Shown: positions 38,755 through 40,416 of the stretch, in pieces | How positions within the stretch are numbered: the first letter of the stretch is position 1 | Layout: each line of letters opens with the position of its first letter | Assembly: GCA_947474705.1 (NCBI GenBank) | Contig: CANJJS010000017.1 | Coordinates: 1-64,000, forward strand | From: Acetobacteraceae bacterium | Lineage (GTDB): Bacteria; Pseudomonadota; Alphaproteobacteria; Acetobacterales; Acetobacteraceae | Length of the DNA: 64,000 nucleotides | Reading direction: 5' to 3' | Position numbers and translations under genes: made by a program | Notes under the pieces: generated by a model | Told to the model about the DNA's origin: nothing | Database searches by the model: none | What the model saw: only the letters and a program-made list of their open reading frames with translations

Positions 38755-40416
38755 CTACTGTGTAACCCGGAACATTGGCAGCGACGCCAGCAACTGCCGC
38801 TCGTCCCCGCGGAAGTCGTTGGCCACCCGGCTTTTCGCGTCGAACACCATCGTCGCCCGTTCCGGCGCGCGAAACGCCGGCCATTGCGGCACGGTCTTGT
38901 TGTTTGGGTTGCCGGTTCGCGCGAAGGCCAGCCAGCACGCGCTCATTTGTTCCGCCAGAGCGCGCTGTTCTTCGCCCTTTCCCACCATCGACTCGGATTT
39001 CGCGGCATTGTCGAAGACAAAAGCCAGATCCAGGCCGTGCGGCGACTTCCATTTTCCGCCATCGACCGGCGTTTGCCAGTCCAGTTCGTACAACCACACC
39101 GGCGCCCCGTTCTGCGCCGCTTTCCGTTCCGCCTGCGCCCAGGCCTGCTGGCGGACGCGGCGGGCGGAGGTGATGGCGAAGAAGAGGTCGGACGGGGAGG
39201 CGGCGGGAAATAACCGCCGATACCCGGCCGCCACGCGCTCGATCTCGTTCGGTTGTATCCACCCGGCCAGTTTCTTGCGCAGGCCGGCTTCGTCCAGCGC
39301 GAAGGCGCCGGGATCGTTCGCGCCGATCGACGCGGTTGTTTCGGTTTTCGTGGTGCCGATCATCATGGGGATGGCGGCGGAACTCGCGGGGCCGTCCGGT
39401 GTCCAGGGCGGTTTGGGCAAAAACCGTCCATCCACCACTGGCGCGAAATTCGGCGCCATCCCCGCGCCCCGCGCCATTTTGCGCAGCGCGGCGAGAATCT
39501 GCTCGCTCGACAGGCGTTGCAGGCGGGGAAGGTCGTTGACCGGCACTTCGACGGCTTTCAGAAACGCCAGCGTGTGCGCGTTCGCCTCGTCCGGCGTTAG
39601 TCCGTCCAGATGCGAGCCGCTTTGCACGATGGCGCGGTGATACAGGCCGCGGGTTTGCGGCATCGCCATCAGCGTGCCGATTTTCGCGCCGCCGCCGCCC
39701 TGGCCGAAAAGCGTGACATTCGCTGGGTCGCCGCCGAATTCGGCGATATTGTTGTGCAGCCAGCGCAACGCCGCGACGATGTCGAGAATGCCCAGATTGC
39801 CTGACTCGGCGAACTCGGTGCCGCCGATTTTCGCCAGGAACAAATGCCCGAAGACATTCAGGCGATGATTGAGCGTGACGACGACCGTGTCGCCTTTCCG
39901 GGCCAGGTTCGTGCCGTCGAACACTGGATTGCCGCCCGAGCCGGTCGCGAACCCGCCGCCGTCGATCCAGACCATGACGGGCCGCTTGTGGTGATCGCGC
40001 AGCGCCGGCGTCCAGATGTTCAGGACCAGGCAGTCCTCGTTCATTGGCGTGTCGGCGGCTCCAGGGGTGGGCGCCCAGGAGGCGGCGTAGGAGGGGCGGG
40101 GAGGGATGTCCTGTGGGCATATGGGGCCCAGAGAGAGCGCGTCGCGGATGCCTTTCCAGGCGACGGCGGGCCGGGGTTCGCGGAACCGCGCCACGCCCTC
40201 GGTGGACGCGGCGTAGGGAATACCTTTGAACACGCGGATTCCGTCGGCGAGGATGCCGCGGACCCGCCCCCGGGACGTGTCCGCGACCACGCTTTGTACC
40301 TGCGATTTTTTGCGCGCGGCGGCGGCTGAGGCCTCGCCGGACGGCGCACCGGCCAGTCCCAACCCCAGGACCATCGGGCCGATCGCCGAGGTCAGCAGGC
40401 CCCGCCGCCCGAGCAT
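38755..40416 (-). CDS. Carboxylesterase type-B fold protein lacking the nucleophile serine
   Basis: A 553-residue paralogue of the esterase at 30173-31720, with an N-terminal export signal that looks Tat-like ([21 protein letters not shown]), so probably periplasmic. The fold markers are all present: [26 protein letters not shown] (oxyanion region), [31 protein letters not shown], and [13 protein letters not shown] (His region). At the nucleophile elbow, however, the sequence is FGQGGGG where FGESGGG is expected: glycine 240 replaces the catalytic serine and Gln replaces Glu. The bases (GGC CAG GGC) are unambiguous in this sequence. Likely inactive as an esterase, perhaps a binding protein. 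It is co-transcribed after the SDR gene (4-bp gap). Confidence 0.82.

Follow-up and report, generated by a model that had tools for sequence, protein, structure and literature searches.

The window is the whole stretch of 64,000 nucleotides that was analysed, from the genome of an Acetobacteraceae bacterium (G000), and it contains COE1, a gene for a carboxylesterase-fold protein, together with an SDR gene and a paralogue, COE2. As shown in Table 1, all three genes lie on the minus strand, and the residues at which COE1 departs from its orthologues are listed there by codon. The deduced COE1 protein matches Pfam COesterase (PF00135) over residues 43-533 with an E value of 5e-96 and a score of 323 bits (cut-off 27), and its frame is open, with 553 codons and no stop or frameshift. 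In the AlphaFold model the fold is kept (mean pLDDT 89.7), and pLDDT falls below 50 only in the N-terminal 37 residues and in a short loop at residues 118-121. The N-terminus carries a GRRGLL motif by eye, and the RR and the hydrophobic stretch that follows it are conserved in the orthologues, in agreement with the Tat-like signal named in the original prediction; export itself is predicted from these features. No second close copy of COE1 was found in G000 or in two other genomes of the genus that are discussed below (G359 and G401), which rules out COE1 as a recent within-genome duplicate.

Table 1. Positions of the genes and of the COE1 codons discussed in the text.
Feature	Position	Strand	Remarks
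COE2, paralogue	30173..31720	(-)	42-43% identical to COE1; FGESGGG elbow and triad intact
COE1	38755..40416	(-)	553 aa, carboxylesterase fold (PF00135); nucleophile position occupied by Gly
Codon 460, His	39037..39039	(-)	Catalytic triad base, kept; aligned with conserved H
Codon 363, Ser	39328..39330	(-)	Ser for invariant Leu (L363S), four residues past the acid
Codon 359, Glu	39340..39342	(-)	Catalytic triad acid, kept; aligned with conserved E
Codon 240, GGC (Gly)	39697..39699	(-)	Nucleophile elbow; TCN (Ser) in orthologues; read directly
Codon 236, CTT (Leu)	39709..39711	(-)	Ile/Val in other clade rows, except Leu in G359
Codon 152, Asp	39961..39963	(-)	Asp for invariant His of the HGGG oxyanion motif (HGGGF to DGGGF, H152D)
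Tat-like N-terminal signal	40303..40416	(-)	Low model confidence, as expected of signals
SDR (adh_short) gene	40421..41167	(-)	4 nt upstream of COE1

The SDR gene adjoins COE1 in all 17 of the other genus neighbourhoods that were read, and in many neighbourhoods of the genus two Gfo/Idh/MocA genes and a CinA gene come next, in divergent orientation. Co-transcription of the SDR gene and COE1 is predicted from the spacing and from this conserved adjacency; a promoter scan found no sigma-70-like site. In G416, the SDR gene beside an intact COE1 (L059, 7941-8730) gives matches in two overlapping frames that resemble a frameshift, either real or an assembly error. Elsewhere in the window, COE2 belongs to a run of co-directional genes at 26632-31720, with GMC oxidoreductase, quinone oxidoreductase-like and phosphotriesterase-family genes, which looks like a catabolic operon.

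Catalytic residues of COE1 and comparison with known relatives

The elbow of COE1 was claimed to read FGQGGGG where that of COE2 reads FGESGGG, and this is borne out at residues 237-243. Going from TCN to GGC requires two or more substitutions in codon 240, so a single base error is no explanation for the glycine. The accompanying claim that the fold, the oxyanion loop and the His region remain holds for the predicted fold and for H460 but not for the oxyanion loop, in which Asp at position 152 replaces a His that the other 31 rows of the clade all share. Among clade columns that do not vary otherwise, the window protein differs at just three, through H152D, L363S and V471A; H152D is within the oxyanion motif and L363S is four residues from the acid E359. 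No substitute nucleophile was seen near the elbow, and position Ser247 is also Gly in the window protein. Judged by the features of an active serine esterase of family VII, COE1 lacks the Ser of G-x-S-x-G and the HGGG motif and has the Glu and His of the triad. Since both Ser240 and His152 are lost, neither an acyl-enzyme nor a normal oxyanion hole is expected.

The closest solved relative is E93 from Altererythrobacter indicus (family VII, ESTHER Carb_B, PDB 7x8l), which was the top sequence match (E 8e-106) and ranked first by Foldseek (39% identity, TM 0.84/0.90). E93 and COE1 have in common the full-length PF00135 fold, the GQ-x-GGG elbow context and the Glu and His of the triad. In contrast, Ser189 of E93 corresponds to Gly240 of COE1, E93 has HGGG where COE1 has DGGG, and the Tat-like signal is found in COE1. 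The triad of E93 consists of S189, E314 and H414, and its S189A mutant was inactive on every ester substrate assayed (PMC9901791), which makes a serine-esterase mechanism very unlikely in COE1. The polyurethane-degrading esterase of Thermaerobacter marianensis (PDB 8wdm) has the same fold as COE1 at about 40% identity by Foldseek; unlike COE1, it is active according to the entry title, and no nucleophile loss is reported there.

Carboxylesterase-fold pseudoenzymes are well known in animals, in which the neuroligins, the thyroglobulin domain and glutactin have this fold without a working catalytic Ser and act as adhesion or carrier proteins. The animal cholinesterase-like non-catalytic proteins are the subject of a review (PMC5943944). 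In contrast to them, COE1 is a bacterial family VII orthologue that appears to have been disarmed independently in one species lineage. The likeness between the two is best described as an analogy, and the COE1 sequence falls with the bacterial family VII esterases. A limited search of the literature on bacterial pseudo-esterases gave no direct precedent and no described family VII case.

Orthologues and losses of triad residues

Some relative is present in all 33 genus genomes, and a COE1 orthologue in 29 of them, in 26 as the best full-length match (the window included) and in 3 as shorter matches; no orthologue was seen in G291, G399, G411 and G417, some of which are incomplete. Outside the genus the distribution is scattered. 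The nearest orthologue to the window protein is that of G401 (78% identity). The elbow Ser, encoded by TCN codons, is present in 27/29 genus orthologues, and Gly is found in 2/29, the window and G359. Within the family, an exact-motif scan covering 398 genomes, with a fixed motif that misses other variants, found the Gly elbow in G000 and G359 only. A fixed-motif scan that covered 385 genomes of the class and accepted A, G, V, D or E as the nucleophile residue found only G000 and one Asp case, G443. The latter belongs to another family of the class and reads FGQDAG (L081, G443:C117:2021-2046). In COE1 relatives outside the genus (L022-L029), the oxyanion loop is HGGD in place of HGGG and the triad is kept.

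The orthologue alignment and the exact-motif scans rule out a conserved GQG subfamily, the conservation of a GQG motif having been proposed as the sign of a real subfamily; with Ser in 27/29 genus orthologues, there is no established non-catalytic subfamily. Orthologues with Ser had been expected to mark the Gly as an isolated mutation. They are indeed the large majority, but a second Ser-to-Gly change in G359 and a His-to-Gln change in G401 argue against an isolated event. The COE1 of G401 (L041, G401:C100:34023-35603) keeps the elbow Ser and has Gln at the catalytic His (H460Q) and at another invariant His (H260Q). In G359, the oxyanion loop is broken as well (HPGGF).

The protein tree groups the window with G401 and G416 (100/100) and G359 with G372 (100/98), and a tree built without the catalytic columns still needs two Ser-to-Gly changes. 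Forcing the window and G359 together was 124 lnL units worse (AU test, p-AU 2e-97). The elbow codons are CTT.TTC.GGC.CAG.GGC in the window and TTG.TTC.GGA.CAA.GGC in G359. The AU test, the lack of excess local identity and the different synonymous codons rule out that the two Gly elbows go back to a common ancestor or to gene conversion. Just ahead of the elbow, I236L occurs in both Gly proteins with differing codons and looks like a parallel second change. A triad residue has thus been lost in three lineages, and these substitutions indicate recurrent disarming of COE1 orthologues, with independent losses in G359 and G401 beside that in the window. In COE2, by comparison, the Ser, Glu and His and the oxyanion His are kept in 26/26 genus copies read (24 orthologues, the window copy and that of G291). 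The excess of triad losses in COE1 (3/29) over COE2 (0/26) is suggestive only and not statistically strong.

The COE1 of G359 (L019/L060, G359:C123) has a dS of 2.55 to that of its sister genome G372, compared to 0.68-1.14 for four neighbouring genes. Because of this difference, the gene may be a replacement derived from another lineage, and its Ser loss may have occurred there. The window COE1 shows no comparable dS mismatch with its neighbours where dS is readable.

Selection on COE1 and its possible role

A branch codon model (15 sequences, 506 codons) gave omega values of 0.09 for the window branch, 0.083 for G359 and 0.060 for G401 against a background of 0.079, each branch value being a mean over the whole terminal branch, with a large dS near saturation and a loss that is undatable within the branch and possibly late. 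An omega of 1 was rejected for the window branch (2 delta lnL 43.8) and for the G359 branch (92.8). The dN and dS between the window and G401 follow the ordinary pattern for COE1 in G401-G416, and dN is not raised relative to the neighbouring genes. Taken together, these results show no general relaxation or decay of the window COE1 over the branch as a whole. Since the loss is undatable within the branch, omega does not separate a kept pseudoenzyme from a recent, well-preserved loss.

We tentatively prefer, at somewhat less than an even chance, the reading that COE1 is a disarmed, non-hydrolytic pseudo-esterase that is still folded and Tat-exported and binds an ancestral ligand or a partner. 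COE1 would derive from an exported carboxylesterase of family VII; it is present once in its genome, and most of its orthologues are intact enzymes. In the window lineage, the changes of Ser240 to Gly and of the oxyanion-motif His152 to Asp would have disarmed it, and the fold, the acid, the base and the operon position with the SDR gene are retained. The protein would then bind a partner or the former esterase ligand without hydrolysis, possibly as a periplasmic ligand binder. The binding, carrier or regulatory role originally suggested is possible on these sequence features: the lost nucleophile, the kept fold and the strong purifying selection fit a non-catalytic protein, but not one of a conserved subfamily.

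The main rival, almost as probable, is that activity was lost without a new role, the esterase being dispensable in some niches, its active site lost recently on the way to decay, and the low omega predating the loss. The apparent absence of the orthologue from 4/33 genus genomes and its scattering outside the genus fit dispensability, as do the retention of the intact COE2 in the genomes and the occurrence of S240G and H460Q in different lineages, a pattern that relaxed constraint on activity would be expected to leave. In contrast, decay is opposed by the intact reading frame, signal and operon spacing and by a dN not above that of the neighbours, and the two base changes at codon 240 together with H152D oppose a single very recent hit. 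A changed enzyme, in which Glu and His directly activate water or a different substrate with Asp152 participating, in a different hydrolase or lyase chemistry, seems quite improbable. E359 and H460 are kept despite the nucleophile loss, and the elbow Gly and the oxyanion-loop Asp would free space that water or a polar ligand could occupy. However, we are not aware of any family VII member with such a mechanism, the three lineages have no common new active site (G401 loses His instead and G359 gains an oxyanion-loop Pro), and the S189A mutant of E93 was dead on every ester tested (PMC9901791). A sequencing, assembly or gene-calling artefact hiding a true Ser can practically be dismissed: the genome is a draft of 205 contigs, but the gene has an open frame, two or more substitutions at codon 240 and more at H152 and L363, and a second genome supplies an independent case.

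For the family, the preferred pseudo-esterase reading carries the caution that PF00135 annotation alone is insufficient for calling esterase activity. A broader and rather unlikely proposal is that one exported bacterial esterase orthologous group repeatedly becomes a non-hydrolytic ligand-binding or sensing protein through the breakage of different catalytic residues (two S240G changes and one H460Q), while its fold and the SDR operon persist. If true, such repeated conversion would offer a bacterial parallel to the cholinesterase-like receptors of animals, seen while the conversion is under way. With intact and disarmed orthologues in the same operon of related species, the step from an enzyme to a possible binder is directly testable.
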